A stretch of 33,099 nucleotides of DNA. It comes from Erysipelotrichaceae bacterium (GTDB lineage: Bacteria > Bacillota_I > Bacilli_A > Erysipelotrichales > Coprobacillaceae). Below, piece by piece: positions 22,097 to 29,328 of the stretch (the stretch's first letter is position 1; each line of letters begins with the position of its first letter). The notes under the pieces were generated by a model. That model did no database searches. It worked only from the letters and a program-made list of their open reading frames with translations, and had not been told where the DNA came from. The translations under genes and the position numbers were made by a program. The stretch covers positions 1-33,099 of the forward strand of contig JAJQFG010000112.1 in NCBI GenBank assembly GCA_021201315.1. Direction: 5' to 3'.

Positions 22097-23404
22097 ATGA
22101 GTATTTTATCTGGCATAGCAAAAGCAAAGCTTGATGGTCAGAAAGGCTTGACAAAGGATAAGCCAATTTTAACTATTGAAGATCCTGATGTTGTTTATAT
22201 TCCTTTGGTTGTAGGTATGGCTACAGATTTTGATGTTCTTGTTAAAGAGGGAGATCATGTTTGTATTGGGACAAAATTAGCAGTTAGAAAAAGTGTTTAT
22301 GTTCCTATTTATGCATCTGTATCTGGAACAGTTAAAGGTATTGAAAAAAGGATGCATGCTTCAAAGAGACAACAACAACATATAGCTATTATTAACGATC
22401 ATAAAAATGAACGTGTTAAGGCTATTGATATTGAAAATCCAGATGAGATGAAGCAAGAGGAAATTGTTGATGCTATTAAAGAATTAGGCATTGTAGGTTT
22501 AGGGGGATCGGGTTTTCCAACATTTTTAAAGTATGGTCATCCTAAAAGTATTGATACTATTATTATTAATGGGGTTGAATGTGAACCTTTTTTAACAAGT
22601 GATCATTTAGCAATGAAACGTGATATTAAAGCATTGTTTGATGGTACAAAGTTCTTAATGAAAGCAGCTGAAGCTTCTAAAGCAATCATTGCGATTAAGG
22701 AACATAAGCCTGATTTATTTGAATTATTAGTAGAAGAAGCTAAGAACTATAGTGATATTACACCTGTAGAAGTAGAAGATTGTTATCCTATGGGTTGGGA
22801 GAGAAAACTTGTAGAAACAATCACAAAGAAAACATACGATCGTTTGCCTGCTGAAGTAGGTGTTATAGTGAATAATTCTGCAACAGCTATTGCAGTGTCA
22901 AAAGGTATTAGAAATGGTGAATGTATTTCTAGACGTGTAGTTACAATGTCAGGTAATGGCTTGAAAAATCCACAAAATGTTGATGTAGCAGTTGGTACAC
23001 CAGTGAATTATATTGTTGATAAAATTGGTGGTTACATTGATGATGAAATAGATGGCTTTATTTTAGGTGGAGGACCTATGATGGGCAAATCAGTTATGAA
23101 TGATACATTTGTGATTTGTACTTATAGTAATGCTATTACTGTTTTAAAGAAGGAGAATATTAAACCTTTGCCTTGTTTAAAATGTGGGGAATGTACATTA
23201 CACTGTCCAGCACATTTACAACCAGTACGTATTATGCAAGCTGAAAAAGCAGGAGATGCTGATTTGATTGAAAAATTAAATGTTTTTGATTGTGTTGAAT
23301 GTGGTATGTGTACATATATTTGTCCAAGTAAGATAGAAGTAACAGATATGGTTGCCAAAGCTAAACGTCGTTATCAATTGGCGCAAAGAAGAAAGAAGGC
23401 ATAG
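22097..23404 (+). CDS. rnfC: Electron transport complex subunit RnfC
   Basis: This 435-residue peripheral subunit binds NADH and FMN in the ion-pumping Rnf (ferredoxin:NAD+ oxidoreductase) complex. It has an N-terminal barrel-sandwich domain (about 1-110) and the nucleotide-binding glycine loop GLGGSGFPTFLK (about 135-146). Two [4Fe-4S] motifs follow: CLKCGECTLHCP at 360-371 and CVECGMCTYICP at 399-410. The length is typical for Gram-positive RnfC. GGAGGG lies before the ATG. It is the first gene of the operon, with rnfD 9 bases downstream. Confidence 0.96.
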   Translation: MSILSGIAKAKLDGQKGLTKDKPILTIEDPDVVYIPLVVGMATDFDVLVKEGDHVCIGTKLAVRKSVYVPIYASVSGTVKGIEKRMHASKRQQQHIAIINDHKNERVKAIDIENPDEMKQEEIVDAIKELGIVGLGGSGFPTFLKYGHPKSIDTIIINGVECEPFLTSDHLAMKRDIKALFDGTKFLMKAAEASKAIIAIKEHKPDLFELLVEEAKNYSDITPVEVEDCYPMGWERKLVETITKKTYDRLPAEVGVIVNNSATAIAVSKGIRNGECISRRVVTMSGNGLKNPQNVDVAVGTPVNYIVDKIGGYIDDEIDGFILGGGPMMGKSVMNDTFVICTYSNAITVLKKENIKPLPCLKCGECTLHCPAHLQPVRIMQAEKAGDADLIEKLNVFDCVECGMCTYICPSKIEVTDMVAKAKRRYQLAQRRKKA

Positions 23405-23413
23405 GAGGTATAT

Positions 23414-24916
23414 ATGAAGGTTACATTACAAAGAACATCACCAAACTATCGTCAAAAACTTTCAACACAGCGTATTATGCGTGATTTAACGATTGCTTTA
23501 TTGGTGATTGTGGCTTATACATTGTTCTATTATTATTATAATTACTTATCTAATGAACCATTTATTCAAGTAGCTTTGATGTTTGTGGTTTCATTGGTTG
23601 TAGCTTTTGCTACAGAGATTGTTTGGGCATATATGCACAAACAAAATATATTGGATTATTTAAAAAGCAGTTTTCCTTGGATAACAGCGATTATTTTAGT
23701 TTTGACTTTACCTATAGGAACACCTTTATATGTTGTTGGAATATCATCATTTATTGCAATTTTCTTAGGAAAATTGGTTTATGGTGGTTTTGGTCAAAAT
23801 ATTTTTAACCCAGCTTTAGTTGGTCGTGTTGTGGCTCATTTGGCTTTTAGTTCAGATTTGATTGCGACTGCAACACCTTCTGGTGTTGATGTGTCATCAT
23901 CTGCAACGCCTATTACGATGATGGCTGCTACCAATTGGCTTGGTGGAGAAGGATTTACTTATTCTTTGACTGATTTATTTTTTGGTAGTCATACAGGAGC
24001 ATTAGGTGAAACTTGTATTATTTTGTTATTGATTTTAGGGATTGTCATGATTCTTAGAAAAGTGATTGATGCAAGAATTCCTGTTTCTTATTTATTGACT
24101 GTTGTCATTTTAAGTGAAGTTTTTGCTGTGATTAATGGTTTGGATTTACTAACTTATCCACTTTATCATTTATGTTTAGGTGGTTTGATGTTTGGAGCAT
24201 TCTTTATGGCTACTGATCCTGTAACATCACCTACTAGTCCACAGGGTAAAATTATTTATGGTGTGGGATTAGGATTTCTTACAATGATTATTCGTTTGAA
24301 AGCTAATTATCCTGAAGGTGTGTTGTTTTCAATTTTAATCATGAATATGTTAACACCTTTGATTGATTCATTGATTTTAGGTAGAATAGATACAAAGATT
24401 GCTCAAAAGTGGTTAAGTATTGTAGCTGTACTTGCTGTATCTATTGTTTGTGTTGCAGGTATTAGTTATACGATAAAAAGTGAAGTAGAAGCTGAAGAAT
24501 TGGCTGCAAAAGAAGAGGCAGAAGAAGCTGCAAGAATTGCTGAAGAAGAAGCTAATAAAGCTGACTGGACTTATGTAGAAACTACTGATGATGGTTATGT
24601 TATGGAAGTTTCTGGGTTTGGTTCATCAATGAAAGTAGCTGTGCAAATTGATGGTGATACAATTACTTCTGTTAAAGTATTAGAATATGCTGGTGAAACA
24701 GCAGGTTATGGTAAAGATTTGATAGAGAATGGTGAAGTACCAAATGATTCTTCTAAGGCAGATGTAGCTACAACCTTTGTTGAAACAGTTTTTGGTGGTA
24801 ATTTAAATAGTGATGATGTTGATGATATAGATGTATCAACAGGTGCTACAAAGACATCTACTGGTATTGTAAATGCTATTAAAGGTGCGCTTGAACAAGC
24901 GGAAATAGGAGGTTAA
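23414..24916 (+). CDS. rnfD: RnfD with a fused C-terminal FMN-binding domain
   Basis: This 500-residue protein is much longer than ordinary RnfD (about 320-350). Residues 1-354 are the usual multi-helix RnfD part, with FNPALVGRV and DPVTSPTSPQGK landmarks. A covalent-flavin-like DVSSSATP motif lies at 159-166 (Thr165), with Ser replacing the usual Gly. A 30-residue Glu/Ala-rich, coiled-coil-like linker (355-384) follows. Residues 385-500 then form an extra FMN_bind domain ending in DVSTGATKTS (Thr479 as the expected flavinylation site). A separate rnfG follows, so the operon encodes two FMN_bind domains. The reading frame is continuous with no sign of misassembly. AGGAGG precedes the ATG. Confidence 0.93.
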   Translation: MKVTLQRTSPNYRQKLSTQRIMRDLTIALLVIVAYTLFYYYYNYLSNEPFIQVALMFVVSLVVAFATEIVWAYMHKQNILDYLKSSFPWITAIILVLTLPIGTPLYVVGISSFIAIFLGKLVYGGFGQNIFNPALVGRVVAHLAFSSDLIATATPSGVDVSSSATPITMMAATNWLGGEGFTYSLTDLFFGSHTGALGETCIILLLILGIVMILRKVIDARIPVSYLLTVVILSEVFAVINGLDLLTYPLYHLCLGGLMFGAFFMATDPVTSPTSPQGKIIYGVGLGFLTMIIRLKANYPEGVLFSILIMNMLTPLIDSLILGRIDTKIAQKWLSIVAVLAVSIVCVAGISYTIKSEVEAEELAAKEEAEEAARIAEEEANKADWTYVETTDDGYVMEVSGFGSSMKVAVQIDGDTITSVKVLEYAGETAGYGKDLIENGEVPNDSSKADVATTFVETVFGGNLNSDDVDDIDVSTGATKTSTGIVNAIKGALEQAEIGG

Positions 24917-24920
24917 AGAT

Positions 24921-25436
24921 ATGTCTAAGATAGTAAAATTAACCGTTTTCCTAGCGATTGTTGCAGGTATTTCAGGTGGTATTATGTCTTTTGTTTATTC
25001 ACAAACAAATCCTATTATTCAAGAAGCTGCCATTGCAACTGTAAAAGAAAGCTTGGAAGAAATTTATCCAGGAGAAGAATTTGAAGAAGAATCCACTGAT
25101 TTAGATGATTATGAAGGTATTGAAGCTGTTTATAAAGCAGGGGATTCAGGTTATGTTTATGAATGTAGTGTTTATGGTTATTCTTCATCAACACCTATTA
25201 CATTTTTAATTGGTTTAGATAATGATGGTATTTATAAAGGGTATATAGTTACTGATTTAAGTGGAGAGACAAAAGGTCTTGGATCTCAAGTTGGTGACGA
25301 GGCTTTTGTAAGTTCAATTGTTGGTAGTGATATTGGTAGTGATATTGATACAATTTCTGGAGCAACGATTTCATCTAGTGCTGTTTTAGGAGTTATTGAC
25401 AATTGTGCTGCTCATTTTGCGGATAATTATCAATAG
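24921..25436 (+). CDS. rnfG: Electron transport complex subunit RnfG
   Basis: This 171-residue protein has one N-terminal transmembrane helix (about 6-26) and an extracytoplasmic FMN_bind domain. RnfG carries covalently bound FMN attached by ApbE to a threonine; the motif DTISGATISS is present with Thr149 as acceptor. The length is slightly below the typical 180-210. It lies 4 bases after rnfD, with AGGAGG upstream of rnfD and GGAGG-type spacing throughout the operon. No apbE gene is present in this window. Confidence 0.95.
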   Translation: MSKIVKLTVFLAIVAGISGGIMSFVYSQTNPIIQEAAIATVKESLEEIYPGEEFEEESTDLDDYEGIEAVYKAGDSGYVYECSVYGYSSSTPITFLIGLDNDGIYKGYIVTDLSGETKGLGSQVGDEAFVSSIVGSDIGSDIDTISGATISSSAVLGVIDNCAAHFADNYQ

Positions 25437-25447
25437 GAGGTATTGGT

Positions 25448-26107
25448 ATGAAGAAATTTGATATTTTTAAAAAAGGTATATTTCAAGAAAATCCTATATT
25501 TGTATTACAATTAGGTATGTGTTCAGCACTGGCAATAACGACTTCACTTACCAATGCTGTTGGTATGGGTATAGCAGTAATTTGTGTTTTGATGATGAGT
25601 AACATTATTATTTCATTGCTAAGAAATATTATTCCTAATGAAATAAGAATACCTGTTTATATTGTTATTATTGCTACATTGGTTAAATGTGTACAAATGA
25701 TTATGAATGCTTATACACCTGAATTATATAATTCATTAGGTGTGTTTATTCCATTGATTGTTGTTAACTGTATTATATTAGGTAGAGCAGAGGCATTTGC
25801 TTCTAAAAATGGGGTTATTGATTCTATTTTAGATGCTTTAGGCATGGGTATAGGTTATTTGTTTGCAGTACTTGTAATTTCTTTTGTGAGACAACTTCTT
25901 GGTACTGGAGGTATTTCATTATATAATCCATTAGATGCTACCCAAGTGATTTTCAATATTGAATTATTCCCAGATTATGCGATTGGTATATTTACACAAT
26001 CAGCTGGTGCATTTATTGCATTGGGATGTATTTTAGCGTTTATTCAATATCTTAAAGTTAGAAAAGAACATAATGCAAAAAAAGTAGAGAAAGCGAGTGT
26101 GAAGTAG
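25448..26107 (+). CDS. rnfE: Electron transport complex subunit RnfE
   Basis: This 219-residue membrane protein has about six helices. It is one of the two homologous NqrD/E-like subunits that, with RnfA, form the ion-translocating, inverted-topology core. Landmarks are QENPIFVLQLGMCSALAI (about residues 12-29) and FIPLIVVNCIILGRAEAFA (about 99-117). Those cysteines are the ones proposed to hold the intramembrane [2Fe-2S] cluster shared with RnfA. GGAGG precedes the ATG, and the start of rnfA follows directly after its stop. Confidence 0.95.
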   Translation: MKKFDIFKKGIFQENPIFVLQLGMCSALAITTSLTNAVGMGIAVICVLMMSNIIISLLRNIIPNEIRIPVYIVIIATLVKCVQMIMNAYTPELYNSLGVFIPLIVVNCIILGRAEAFASKNGVIDSILDALGMGIGYLFAVLVISFVRQLLGTGGISLYNPLDATQVIFNIELFPDYAIGIFTQSAGAFIALGCILAFIQYLKVRKEHNAKKVEKASVK

Positions 26108-26108
26108 G

Positions 26109-26681
26109 ATGGAATTAATTGGTTTATTTGTCAGCTTAACATTTGTTAATAACGTTGTATTAAGTAAATTCTATGCTATTTGTCCATTAATGGGGTTATC
26201 TAAAAAACCTCAAAATGCTTTAAATATGGGCTTAGCTGTTACTTTTGTTATATTTGTCGCATCTATTGTAACTTATTTCATTTATTATTATGTATTAGTT
26301 CCATTAGAAATTACATACTTAGATTTAATTACATTTATTCTTGTTATTGCATCTTTAGTACAATTTGTAGAAATGTTCTTAAAGAAAACAAGTCCGGAAA
26401 TTTATAAATCTATGGGTGTTTATTTACCATTGATTACTACAAACTGTGCTGTTTTAGGTGTTGCTTTGGATAATATTTCTGCTGGTTATAATTTAATAGA
26501 AGCAGCTGTTGCTGGACTTGCAGTTCCTATTGGTTTTGCTATTGTTATTTATGTATTTGCAACAATTCGTGAAAGATTAGATATTGCTGATGTTCCTGAA
26601 AGTTTTGAAGGAGCTCCAATTGCTTTAATTACAGCAGGTATTATGGCTTGCGCCATTATGGGAATCGCAGGTATTGTTTAA
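26109..26681 (+). CDS. rnfA: Electron transport complex subunit RnfA
   Basis: This 190-residue membrane protein has six helices and is homologous to RnfE. It carries the paired cysteine landmarks: SKFYAICPLMG (Cys near residue 25) and LPLITTNCAVLGVALDN (Cys near 110). With RnfE it forms the membrane core that carries electrons across the bilayer through a [2Fe-2S] cluster. The length is family-typical (about 190-195). Its TAA overlaps the ATG of the following small gene by one base, implying coupled translation. Confidence 0.95.
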   Translation: MELIGLFVSLTFVNNVVLSKFYAICPLMGLSKKPQNALNMGLAVTFVIFVASIVTYFIYYYVLVPLEITYLDLITFILVIASLVQFVEMFLKKTSPEIYKSMGVYLPLITTNCAVLGVALDNISAGYNLIEAAVAGLAVPIGFAIVIYVFATIRERLDIADVPESFEGAPIALITAGIMACAIMGIAGIV

Positions 26682-26854
26682 TGAGTATTTATGCAATAAT
26701 ATTTTTAGCAATTATGATTGCCATATTTATAGGTACATATTTGTTAAATAAAAACACCCCAAAACCAGAAGGGTGTGACGATATGGAGGAATGTAGTGCA
26801 TGTGGTAATTTTGGTTGCACTATGAACTCACATCATAAAGAGGAAAACAATTAA
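26681..26854 (+). CDS. 57-residue membrane protein with RnfB-like cysteine cluster
   Basis: One N-terminal transmembrane helix (about residues 3-22) is followed by a short soluble tail with four cysteines: GCDDMEECSACGNFGC. The spacing C-x2-C-x4-C (Cys38, 41, 46) is exactly that of the RnfB [4Fe-4S] motif encoded next door (CGGCGYPGC), and Cys32 could be the fourth ligand. It also has a His-His near its end. It overlaps rnfA and rnfB by one base on each side (TAATG at both junctions), so it is a coupled member of the operon rather than chance. I know no named Rnf subunit of this kind. Its likely role is as an auxiliary iron-sulphur or metal-binding subunit. Confidence 0.85.
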   Translation: MSIYAIIFLAIMIAIFIGTYLLNKNTPKPEGCDDMEECSACGNFGCTMNSHHKEENN

Positions 26855-27165
26855 TGGATATGAGTGCAATATTAGCTTTAGCGGTTATTGGTGCGATAGC
26901 TGGATGCGTTTTAGGTGTTGCTAATCAATTTTTAAAAGTTGAAGATGATCCACGTGTTGAAGCTGTTTCTAGTATGTTACCAAATGCTAATTGTGGTGGC
27001 TGTGGTTATCCAGGATGTGCTGGCTTTGCTGATGCCCTAGTTAGTGGTGAAGTAAAAAGTGTTAAAAACTGTGTTGCCAGCAACCCACAAATTAGATCAG
27101 ATATTCAAAAATATCTTAGTGAAACACCAGGACCTGATGGTGAAACCATTAAAGTTACGATATAA
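26854..27165 (+). CDS. rnfB: Short RnfB lacking ferredoxin domains
   Basis: At 103 residues, this has only the N-terminal transmembrane helix (about 5-25) and the first [4Fe-4S] domain of RnfB, with Cys47, 50, 55 and 73 in the pattern C-x2-C-x4-C-x17-C. Typical RnfB proteins continue with two to several ferredoxin-type clusters that take electrons from ferredoxin, usually totalling 190-330 residues. Here the protein ends after GPDGETIKVTI, and a clean terminator follows at once, so no frameshifted remainder is present. It may start at either ATG (26854 or 26860). How ferredoxin docks with this complex is unclear. Confidence 0.9.
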   Translation: MDMSAILALAVIGAIAGCVLGVANQFLKVEDDPRVEAVSSMLPNANCGGCGYPGCAGFADALVSGEVKSVKNCVASNPQIRSDIQKYLSETPGPDGETIKVTI

Positions 27166-27246: not shown

Positions 27247-28248
27247 ATGCAACTAACAAATTCAATCTATTGTATAAAAAAGAATTATTGCAATTCATAT
27301 ATAATTATTGACAATCAAATTGTCATTATTGATGTTATTAATGAGGAATGGTTTCAACAAGTTATTCATTTATTATCAAATCGACAACCAGATTACTTTA
27401 TCATTACTCATCAATATCATAGTTCTGCTATTTTATCATTATGCCAAAAATATCCTCATATGAAACTCATTATCAATCATCAAATAAGTGATTATTTGAA
27501 TCTTCATATTTCTAATCCTATACATATTATTGATAAAAATGAAACCATGACTTTAGATCATCATACTTTATTATTACAGGTTATTAATGATATGATACTC
27601 ATATATCATCAAGAAAAGAAGATTTTATTTAGTTCCCATGTTTTTTCTACAAAAAATTTACATCAATTATGGAATGAAGAGGCCAGATACTATTATGTAC
27701 AAAATAAAGATTCTTTTACTTATTCATTGTTAGATATACTTAAATCATTTGATTATACAATGATTTGTCCGTATAAGGGACAAATCATTACCCATCATTT
27801 TAAACAATATATACATTATCTAGAATTATGGTTATCATCTATACCTGAAGAAGATGGTGTTTTAATATTAACTCATAGTGATTATATATTGGTTTATCAG
27901 GCTTGCCTATATTTACAAGAGGAATTGATTGCTCATGGAGATAATGTTTTGCTTTATGATATTTCTAAAGGTGATTTAACATTTGCTAATTCTTTAGTGT
28001 TAAAATATGACCGTATTATTATTGGTGGCTATAGGTTTGATTCTCATGGATTTGTAGTAAATAATCGTGTGTTTAGTGGTATATTTGATAGTGTTAATGA
28101 AGCTATTGATTTAAAAAATAGGCTATTAGATTTTAATAATATTCTTTATGTGGAGCCGACGATTATTAATCAGGATTATCAATTATTAATGAATTTATTA
28201 GTGCATCAAATTATGGAAGTTGGATGTAGTAATGGTGTATGTGTTTAA
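27247..28248 (+). CDS. Flavodiiron-like protein lacking the metal ligands
   Basis: This 333-residue protein has a degenerate metallo-beta-lactamase-like half (about 1-190) and a flavodoxin-like half (about 195-333, starting GVLILTHSDY). The layout follows flavodiiron proteins (usually about 400 residues), with recognisable relics: ITHQYHSSA (52-61) where the family has HxExDHSG, FSSHVF (128-133) for the Asp-x-Phe site, NEEARYYY, and ICPYKGQI (173-180) for the terminal P-x-HGP. Only isolated histidines remain, and the key Glu, Asp and last His are gone, so di-iron binding and O2/NO reduction are improbable. Two cysteines occur in the C-terminal GCSNGVCV. GGTGAT lies before the ATG. A role as electron carrier or scaffold beside Rnf is speculative. 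Confidence 0.65.
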   Translation: MQLTNSIYCIKKNYCNSYIIIDNQIVIIDVINEEWFQQVIHLLSNRQPDYFIITHQYHSSAILSLCQKYPHMKLIINHQISDYLNLHISNPIHIIDKNETMTLDHHTLLLQVINDMILIYHQEKKILFSSHVFSTKNLHQLWNEEARYYYVQNKDSFTYSLLDILKSFDYTMICPYKGQIITHHFKQYIHYLELWLSSIPEEDGVLILTHSDYILVYQACLYLQEELIAHGDNVLLYDISKGDLTFANSLVLKYDRIIIGGYRFDSHGFVVNNRVFSGIFDSVNEAIDLKNRLLDFNNILYVEPTIINQDYQLLMNLLVHQIMEVGCSNGVCV

Positions 28249-28327: not shown

Positions 28328-28831
28328 ATGTGTATCAAAGAAAACTTAATTTTAATGAATGAATCTTTAATAGAATTAGAGAAAACAGGGAAATATGATG
28401 TTTTAAGATATACGGATAGTTTACTATATCAAACGAATCAACTAGAGTATTTCTATTGTCATCTTGTTAAAAATGGAGATTATGATCATACTTATTATCA
28501 TGTATCTCATCGTCCGCATGTACATGAACTAGCTTATTTTAATATTGGCAGAGGATATCCTAAAGAGTTGATGGATGGACATTGGTGTTATGTCGTTAAA
28601 GATATGAAATATAAAGTATTAATTATACCATGTACTATATTTAAAAATCATCAATATATTCATCATTATGAAATGCCGATAAAAGTTAATCATATGAATT
28701 GTTTATATTGTTTACAATTAAGCGATATCAAATGTATTGATATACAAAGAATTGATTTGCGAAAACCATTTTATCAAGTATTAACACCACGTCATGAAAT
28801 TATGAGTTGTATCAAAGATAAGCTTTTATGA
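28328..28831 (+). CDS. MazF/PemK-like protein A
   Basis: This 167-residue protein has an N-terminal helical extension (about 1-65) before a core resembling the MazF/PemK fold. HELAYFNIGRGYPKE (about 75-89) stands where MazF has the strand entering GSEQGG. DGHWCYVVK is the next strand, and VLIIPCT (about 104-110) corresponds to the VIVAPIT strand with its threonine. QLSDIKCIDIQRIDL (about 140-154) matches the MazF signature QIRTIDKxRL. The catalytic arginine position of MazF appears to be histidine. mRNA cleavage is therefore uncertain. No antitoxin gene adjoins. It sits 8 bases before its paralogue, behind an unusual leader. Confidence 0.6.
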   Translation: MCIKENLILMNESLIELEKTGKYDVLRYTDSLLYQTNQLEYFYCHLVKNGDYDHTYYHVSHRPHVHELAYFNIGRGYPKELMDGHWCYVVKDMKYKVLIIPCTIFKNHQYIHHYEMPIKVNHMNCLYCLQLSDIKCIDIQRIDLRKPFYQVLTPRHEIMSCIKDKLL

Positions 28832-28839
28832 GGTATTAT

Positions 28840-29328
28840 ATGAATAAAAAATATCATTTAGATCATATCTACCAATCATTAAAACACTTATCATTATCAA
28901 GTTATGATAGTAATAAATATAGTTATAGTATTTTACAACAAACCAAACAATTAGAATATTATTATTGTCATCAAGAAAACTTACATATGTGGAAAATACC
29001 CCATTTTCATCAATTGGCTTACTTTAATATAGGACGTGGTTTTCCTAAAGAAATTATGGATGGACATTGGTGCTATGTTGTAAAGAATTTAGGGGATAAG
29101 ATGCTAGTGATTCCATGTACATCGATAAAAGATAATAAGCATATAAACAATAAAAATGAAAAATATATTGGTATTAGATATTATAATCGTATCGGTTATT
29201 GTTGTATGCATTTATCAGATATAAGAGCAATAGATATTCAACGATTAGATTTAAGAAAACCGATCTATCAGGTTATAACACCTAGAAAAGAAATTATTGA
29301 TTTTATTGAAGAAAATTTATTCAATTAA
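28840..29328 (+). CDS. MazF/PemK-like protein B (tandem paralogue)
   Basis: This 162-residue paralogue of the preceding protein arose by tandem duplication. The core is nearly identical (LAYFNIGRGFPKEIMDGHW, VIPCT, LSDIRAIDIQRLDLRKP, QVITPRKEI), while the N-terminal third and the loop after IPCT have diverged. The start at 28840 is chosen because TGAGGT lies directly upstream; an in-frame ATG at 28828 overlaps the previous stop and lacks a ribosome site. LSDIRAID is very close to the MazF consensus. It ends at a bidirectional terminator shared with ackA. The function is unknown: either a toxin-like RNase or an RNA-binding regulator. Confidence 0.6.
   Translation: MNKKYHLDHIYQSLKHLSLSSYDSNKYSYSILQQTKQLEYYYCHQENLHMWKIPHFHQLAYFNIGRGFPKEIMDGHWCYVVKNLGDKMLVIPCTSIKDNKHINNKNEKYIGIRYYNRIGYCCMHLSDIRAIDIQRLDLRKPIYQVITPRKEIIDFIEENLFN

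Follow-up and report, generated by a model that had tools for sequence, protein, structure and literature searches.

An overlooked cysteine-rich membrane micro-gene between rnfA and rnfB accompanies short-RnfB Rnf operons in Bacillota

Introduction

Descriptions of the Rnf operon usually list six genes. In an Erysipelotrichaceae bacterium (assembly GCA_021201315.1, contig JAJQFG010000112.1), a further reading frame of 57 residues lies between rnfA and rnfB, and a domain search finds no C-terminal Fer4 (input) domain in the adjacent 103-aa RnfB. Is this micro-gene real, how widely does it occur, and what might its product do for the complex? An earlier note on this DNA had proposed an unrecognized membrane protein that might replace or complement the clusters missing from RnfB. 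Here, we follow up that proposal in the window (the whole stretch of 33,099 nucleotides that was analyzed) and across Bacillota genomes. E-values and P values throughout treat related genomes as independent.

Results

The micro-gene is part of an operon, rnfC-D-G-E-A-micro-B, that spans positions 22097 to 27165 of the window (Table 1). The rnfA stop codon TAA (26679-26681) shares one base with the ATG of the micro-gene, and the TAA of the micro-gene (26852-26854) shares one base with the ATG of rnfB, giving TAATG at both junctions. The coordinates and overlaps given in the earlier note are thus correct. The predicted product is MSIYAIIFLAIMIAIFIGTYLLNKNTPKPEGCDDMEECSACGNFGCTMNSHHKEENN, with cysteines at residues 32, 38, 41, and 46. 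Hydropathy (residues 3 to 21, mean KD 2.5) and AlphaFold2 (helix 3 to 24, pLDDT 85 to 97) agree with the single membrane helix noted earlier; the tail is modeled at low confidence (pLDDT 50 to 62). From a positive-inside reading, the cysteine tail probably faces the cytoplasm. As the earlier note had seen, CSACGNFGC (residues 38 to 46) has the C-x2-C-x4-C spacing of CGGCGYPGC in RnfB. It overlooked a fourth conserved cysteine, C32, which extends the motif to C-x5-C-x2-C-x4-C.

Table 1. Features of the rnf operon and of the micro-gene in the window.
Feature	Position	Strand	Description
rnfC	22097..23404	+	NADH module, two 4Fe-4S motifs
rnfD	23414..24916	+	Extra C-terminal FMN_bind domain (TGAT)
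rnfG	24921..25436	+	FMN_bind with SGAT flavinylation motif
rnfE	25448..26107	+	TIGR01948, 240 bits; Cys 25, 46, 81, 108, 194
rnfA	26109..26681	+	TIGR01943, 236 bits; half of the RnfA/RnfE membrane pair; Cys 25, 113, 181
Micro-gene	26681..26854	+	57 aa, ATG start; N-terminal membrane helix, then C-x5-C-x2-C-x4-C tail
Membrane helix, micro-protein residues 3-24	26687..26752	+	Hydropathy and AlphaFold2
Cys32, variable fourth candidate ligand	26774..26776	+	Upstream Cys in 75/86 relatives
Core motif Cys38-x2-Cys41-x4-Cys46	26792..26818	+	Three Cys in 86/86; C-x2-C-x4-C in 81/86
Short rnfB	26854..27165	+	103 aa: membrane helix and one PF04060 Fe-S domain

Some surrounding features are recorded here as observations in their own right. 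RnfD ranges from ~350 to ~740 aa within the short-RnfB clade (L092-L132), and the TGAT-bearing extra FMN_bind domain of the window RnfD may provide a second extracytoplasmic electron path. Downstream of rnfB, ORF 27247-28248 (333 aa) sits where four other loci (L096, L099, L007, and L015) have a gene of ~390 aa, judged by eye to be flavodiiron-like (A-type flavoprotein); at the position of SHMEPDHG in those genes, the window ORF has THQYHSSA, which suggests loss of the metal site. Two overlapping tandem paralogues follow (28328-28831 and 28828-29328, 167 and 166 aa), the former with no significant Pfam match. The host genome (G000) has no ApbE match, yet its congeners G022 and G023 have one each; this is probably an assembly gap, because RnfG and RnfD retain their flavinylation motifs.

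We confirm that ORF 26681-26854 is a real gene. Relatives were found at E < 1e-9 in 21 of the 43 genomes of the host's family, and dN/dS between close relatives is 0.015 to 0.28. Among 18 family sequences, with identities down to 39%, the four cysteines, A5, Y20, N23, T26, and P29 are invariant. The consensus of the micro-protein family after the helix is N-[KR]-x-T-P-x-P-x-x-C-x5-C-x2-C-x4-C. P29 stays invariant among wider relatives, with N23 and T26, just past the helix, near-invariant. There was no meaningful match to the micro-protein in NCBIfam, no match in a plasmid collection, and no convincing relative in the PDB, and a literature search found nothing on a gene between rnfA and rnfB, nor on short RnfB. 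Judged by their sequences, the micro-proteins form a distinct family of one membrane helix plus a cysteine motif that the family databases searched have missed. The view of an unrecognized, rnf-linked gene holds.

Motif anatomy was counted over 86 distinct profile-identified sequences. The earlier note would have given up its claim if the ORF or its cysteines were absent from related rnf operons; the three-cysteine core is present in every sequence and its spacing is exactly C-x2-C-x4-C in 81, so the claim is not refuted. The last pair is separated by x5 in two of the remainder and by x7 in three. The fourth cysteine is more mobile. It lies upstream in 75 sequences; among the 11 others, 8 have a downstream cysteine 12 to 20 residues away, versus 1 of the 75 (P = 3e-8, with related sequences treated as independent), and in 3 of the 86 it is missing altogether. 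In positional candidates from the most reduced genomes, the spacing shrinks to C-x2-C-x2/3-C. Because the core is invariant, the fourth ligand movable, and the spacing loose, the pattern seems to fit an exposed site for handing on iron or Fe-S better than a fixed electron relay.

Across 392 Bacillota genomes, the micro-gene profile (presence defined as E ≤ 0.01) matches 115. About a third of the genomes (132) have an rnfA-type gene, most of these with a short RnfB. Matches occur in 110 of the 132, versus 5 of the 260 other genomes (Fisher's exact test, P ~ 1e-67, with related genomes counted as independent), and four of those five are low-scoring. The micro-gene lies directly upstream of a short rnfB in 87 of 88 annotated loci (some operons are represented twice), and downstream of rnfA except at one contig edge; the exception is a solo copy (L087). 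A pattern scan reached close relatives only and took a single genome for each species; its 45 named loci belong to Holdemanella, Longibaculum, Massilimicrobiota, Candidatus Stoquefichus, Sharpea, Allobaculum, Bacilli/Acholeplasmatales MAGs, and two Leptotrichiaceae MAGs. Within the host's own family, the 21 loci with a micro-gene have an RnfB of about 87 to 126 aa, and at loci with a full-length RnfB (~260 aa), rnfA runs straight into rnfB with no micro-gene. In the loci compared, the micro-gene does accompany RnfB proteins without the C-terminal ferredoxin clusters, as had been proposed.

Twenty-two rnfA-type genomes had no first-pass match. Five gave later profile matches, either to a divergent adjacent copy (G069, G178, and G208) or to a solo copy (G155 and G344). 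Five more (G272, G212, G355, G245, and G099) have an ORF of 35 to 47 aa with a membrane helix and cysteines between rnfA and rnfB, a candidate by position and layout alone. Thus, all 10 short-RnfB exceptions examined hold a divergent, relocated, or positional candidate. Four genomes have a full-length RnfB and no convincing micro-gene copy (G010, G012, G013, and G270). Seven are NQR-type: G133, G140, and G274 lack RnfB at the loci read, and G058, G096, G289, and G406 are assumed to be NQR-type from belonging to the same genus as G133 and G140. The last genome, G317, was left out. Note that an adjacent micro-gene is not a strict rule for short RnfB, an idea we rejected since several rnf operons have none in cis.

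Three further observations concern unusual loci. Loci L266, L267, and L268, from reduced genomes, carry ORFs of 35 to 38 aa with a membrane helix and cysteines between rnfA and rnfB, under the usual ORF-calling limit. In G257 and G401, which have the micro-gene, RnfB is 183 to 187 aa long, carries a pair of PF04060-type C-x2-C-x4-C domains in succession, and lacks a Fer4 domain (L205:5782 and L204:6625, respectively); G401 has two micro-gene copies. Two MAGs labeled Leptotrichiaceae (L109 and L114) carry a Bacilli-type short-RnfB operon with a micro-gene and fall inside the Bacilli clade of the tree, reflecting either gene transfer or mis-binning.

In a tree of RnfE plus RnfA (90 tips), all short-RnfB operons form one clade (support 0.91) nested among full-length-RnfB Rnf. 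RnfB therefore lost its input domain, and the micro-gene was gained, together and only once; with a single clade origin, the association with RnfB length is not in itself proof of compensation. Later retention tells more: a micro-gene gone from the operon is kept elsewhere. Unlinked copies occur in genomes where short rnfB directly follows rnfA. One lies in the order HisRS-AspRS-micro-dCMP deaminase (L213) and another between genes for phosphoglucomutase and uracil-DNA glycosylase (L218), with neighbors named by eye from their sequences; L206 and L211 likewise have relocated copies beside other genes. In each of three genomes (G066, G138, and G162), three Rnf operons are accompanied by two micro-genes, of which one is part of an operon and the other is solo. 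Unlinked copies, and copies fewer than operons, would fit a trans-acting factor.

We compared the micro-protein with four families of similar build. RseC/MucC (PF04246), including the RseC half of Rhodobacter RnfF, is likewise membrane-tethered and may share an invariant C-x2-C-x4/5-C with a dispensable upstream cysteine (C-x5); the RseC spacing, C-x2-C-x5-C, was read in six sequences. RseC is an Rnf/Rsx accessory, as the micro-protein may be, and like the micro-gene it is often unlinked to rnf and found with ApbE. However, RseC has ~140 to 160 aa, with an N-terminal cytoplasmic cysteine domain followed by two helices, whereas the micro-protein has 35 to 80 aa, with one helix followed by the cysteine tail. 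PF04246 matched one of the 18 family members at E 9.7 and reached its 24.4-bit cut-off in none; Thermotoga maritima RseC served as the control when the 392 genomes were scanned with PF04246. HHalign gave RseC and the micro profile a probability of 10%, a likeness at the level of the motif with no significant homology.

NqrM (PF04400/DUF539) shares a single N-terminal helix, four cysteines soon after it, and loose later spacing; the micro-protein core is joined by an upstream cysteine in 75 of 86 sequences. NqrM is also dedicated to one NQR/RNF-type complex, but as a companion of NQR, not Rnf, and its motif differs (K[TS]IxGSCGG...CxC or CxxC). We rejected homology with NqrM: a profile comparison with eight NqrM sequences scored within the null. 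PF04400 (22-bit cut-off) found none of the 18 members at E ≤ 10 and exceeded its cut-off in no genome of the family, and the NQR-type operons read (L270-L272 and L274) have no micro-gene. The FeoB_associated family (PF12669) also has ~50 to 60 aa, an N-terminal helix, and a C-terminal cysteine cluster; membership was rejected on a score below gathering and on separate paralogues in the same genomes. The first Fe-S domain of RnfB (PF04060) likewise follows an N-terminal helix with C-x2-C-x4-C, but its fourth cysteine lies x17 downstream in a folded domain of ~35 aa, whereas that of the micro-protein is usually x5 upstream and the short tail has no recognizable domain. HHalign gave 76 to 90% for full profiles, yet this score was also attained by 3 of 150 permuted tails, and the probability was 11% for the soluble part by itself. 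We therefore do not claim an origin by RnfB duplication.

Discussion

The micro-gene is real and conserved, tied to one Rnf clade, dependent on its cysteines as judged by their conservation, relocatable, and present where RseC is unrecognizable. By analogy, we propose that it encodes a dedicated maturation or service factor of the Bacilli-type short-RnfB Rnf, a counterpart of RseC and NqrM, with a probability of roughly one half. The core of RNF/NQR depends on a [2Fe-2S] cluster lying in the membrane between RnfA and RnfE, and in these complexes ApbE inserts FMN and NqrM the NQR cluster (PMC12174285; PMC6209661). RseC has a cytoplasmic C-x5-C-x2-C-x5-C motif, of which the last three cysteines alone are conserved; an oxygen-labile Fe-S cluster can be reconstituted on it, it makes contact with RsxB and RsxD, and Rsx function requires it (PMC11729352). 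Clostridium ljungdahlii without RseC loses autotrophy, and the authors of that study argue that RseC is a regulator (PMC9124969).

We infer that the micro-protein binds metal, faces the cytoplasm, and delivers to RnfA/E. The membrane helix would anchor a site for Fe or Fe-S, made of three or four cysteines and exposed at the cytoplasmic face, where C-x2-C-x4-C and a movable fourth ligand would bind iron or a labile Fe-S cluster. This would pass to the cysteine-ligated [2Fe-2S] of RnfA-RnfE, or to the single RnfB cluster, during assembly; alternatively, the micro-protein would reduce or repair one of these clusters. In function it would then correspond to RseC, in the Rnf/Rsx systems that carry RseC, and to NqrM in Na+-NQR. 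This reading draws on the near-RseC motif logic, the membrane tether, the Rnf-tied distribution, the scarcity of recognizable RseC, and the ApbE neighbors. Among the 392 Bacillota genomes, PF04246 exceeds its cut-off in just two, one not rnfA-positive (G267) and the other over profile positions 47 to 112 only (G147). In L225, L228, and L231, short rnfB is followed directly by an apbE gene, and nqrM genes adjoin apbE at the NqrM loci inspected. Against it are the undetectable homology with NqrM, a likeness to RseC that appears at motif level only, the single clade origin, and the regulator role argued for C. ljungdahlii RseC. Some bacteria are reported to assemble Rnf without RseC (PMC11729352), and full-length-RnfB Bacillota appear in our profile scans to have neither the micro-gene nor RseC; such a factor is thus not universally needed.

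The main rival is a true seventh subunit, in which an Fe-S cluster on the cysteine tail relays electrons from a donor (ferredoxin or another protein) to the single RnfB cluster, replacing the lost polyferredoxin domain. The conserved operon position, the overlapping reading frames, and the pairing with RnfB that lacks a Fer4 domain, with absence beside full-length RnfB, speak for it. So do the spacing shared with the RnfB Fe-S site, a downstream fourth cysteine (x12 to x20) that nears RnfB C-x17-C, and a tail profile that scores against the RnfB Fe-S motif above 150 of 150 permutations, though at just 11% probability. We nevertheless regard it as unlikely. T. maritima RnfB is 10.56 kDa with one cluster, the reported gene order is CDGEAB (annotated genes), and the purified Rnf transports Na+ and, given clostridial ferredoxin, reduces NAD+ (PMC7414866). 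Because that complex works with ferredoxin, a one-cluster RnfB probably suffices to take up electrons, with no additional cluster protein known, going by the annotated genes; T. maritima also has an RseC, THEMA_1487 (PMC9124969). Loose ligand spacing, 3 of 86 sequences with no fourth ligand, unlinked copies, and too few copies in multi-operon genomes also argue against a relay. For the same reasons (ferredoxin oxidation by the T. maritima complex, unlinked copies, and two copies for three operons), the earlier suggestion that the micro-protein replaces the missing RnfB clusters fares poorly, and the association with RnfB length reflects one clade origin.

Two other readings carry less weight. 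In one, the product is a stabilizing micro-subunit that uses its cysteines for Zn binding or disulfides and clamps short RnfB to RnfA/E, with no redox or delivery role. Just past the helix, P29 is invariant and N23 and T26 are nearly so, a pattern that suggests protein contact; yet the gene persists at unlinked positions, and a Zn site should keep four ligands, whereas here the fourth moves or disappears, so we consider this reading improbable. It is more improbable still that the protein belongs to the FeoB-associated family in ferrous iron uptake and sits beside rnf incidentally. PF12669 is the nearest Pfam model, with the same helix and cysteine layout and matches to 6 of 18 members (best E 0.0014), but the window protein (E 0.015) scores 16 bits against the curated 27-bit cut-off, and 5 to 8 of 150 permutations reach the observed score. 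Moreover, in 42 of the 43 family genomes another gene, at a different place, passes the PF12669 cut-off, and micro-gene presence tracks rnf, not feoB. The micro-gene is not adjacent to feoB, lying beside rnfA/rnfB in 87 of 88 loci and, where relocated (L213, L218, L206, and L211), beside other genes.

A broader view, which we hold only tentatively and think somewhat doubtful, is that NQR/RNF branches independently recruited small membrane-tethered cysteine proteins for assembly or upkeep of the [2Fe-2S] buried between subunits: NqrM for NQR, RseC for many Rnf/Rsx, and the micro-protein for the Bacilli short-RnfB Rnf. If true, intramembrane cluster insertion would be needed in general, and convergent factors would provide it.

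Our findings indicate that most short-RnfB Rnf operons in the sampled Bacillota have an overlooked seventh gene, and that expressing this branch of Rnf heterologously without it could give an incomplete enzyme. If the micro-protein is a counterpart of RseC and NqrM, this would support RseC, a regulator to some, as a maturation factor, and the poorly understood placement of an Fe-S cluster mid-membrane between two inverted subunits would become testable with a protein of 35 to 80 residues.
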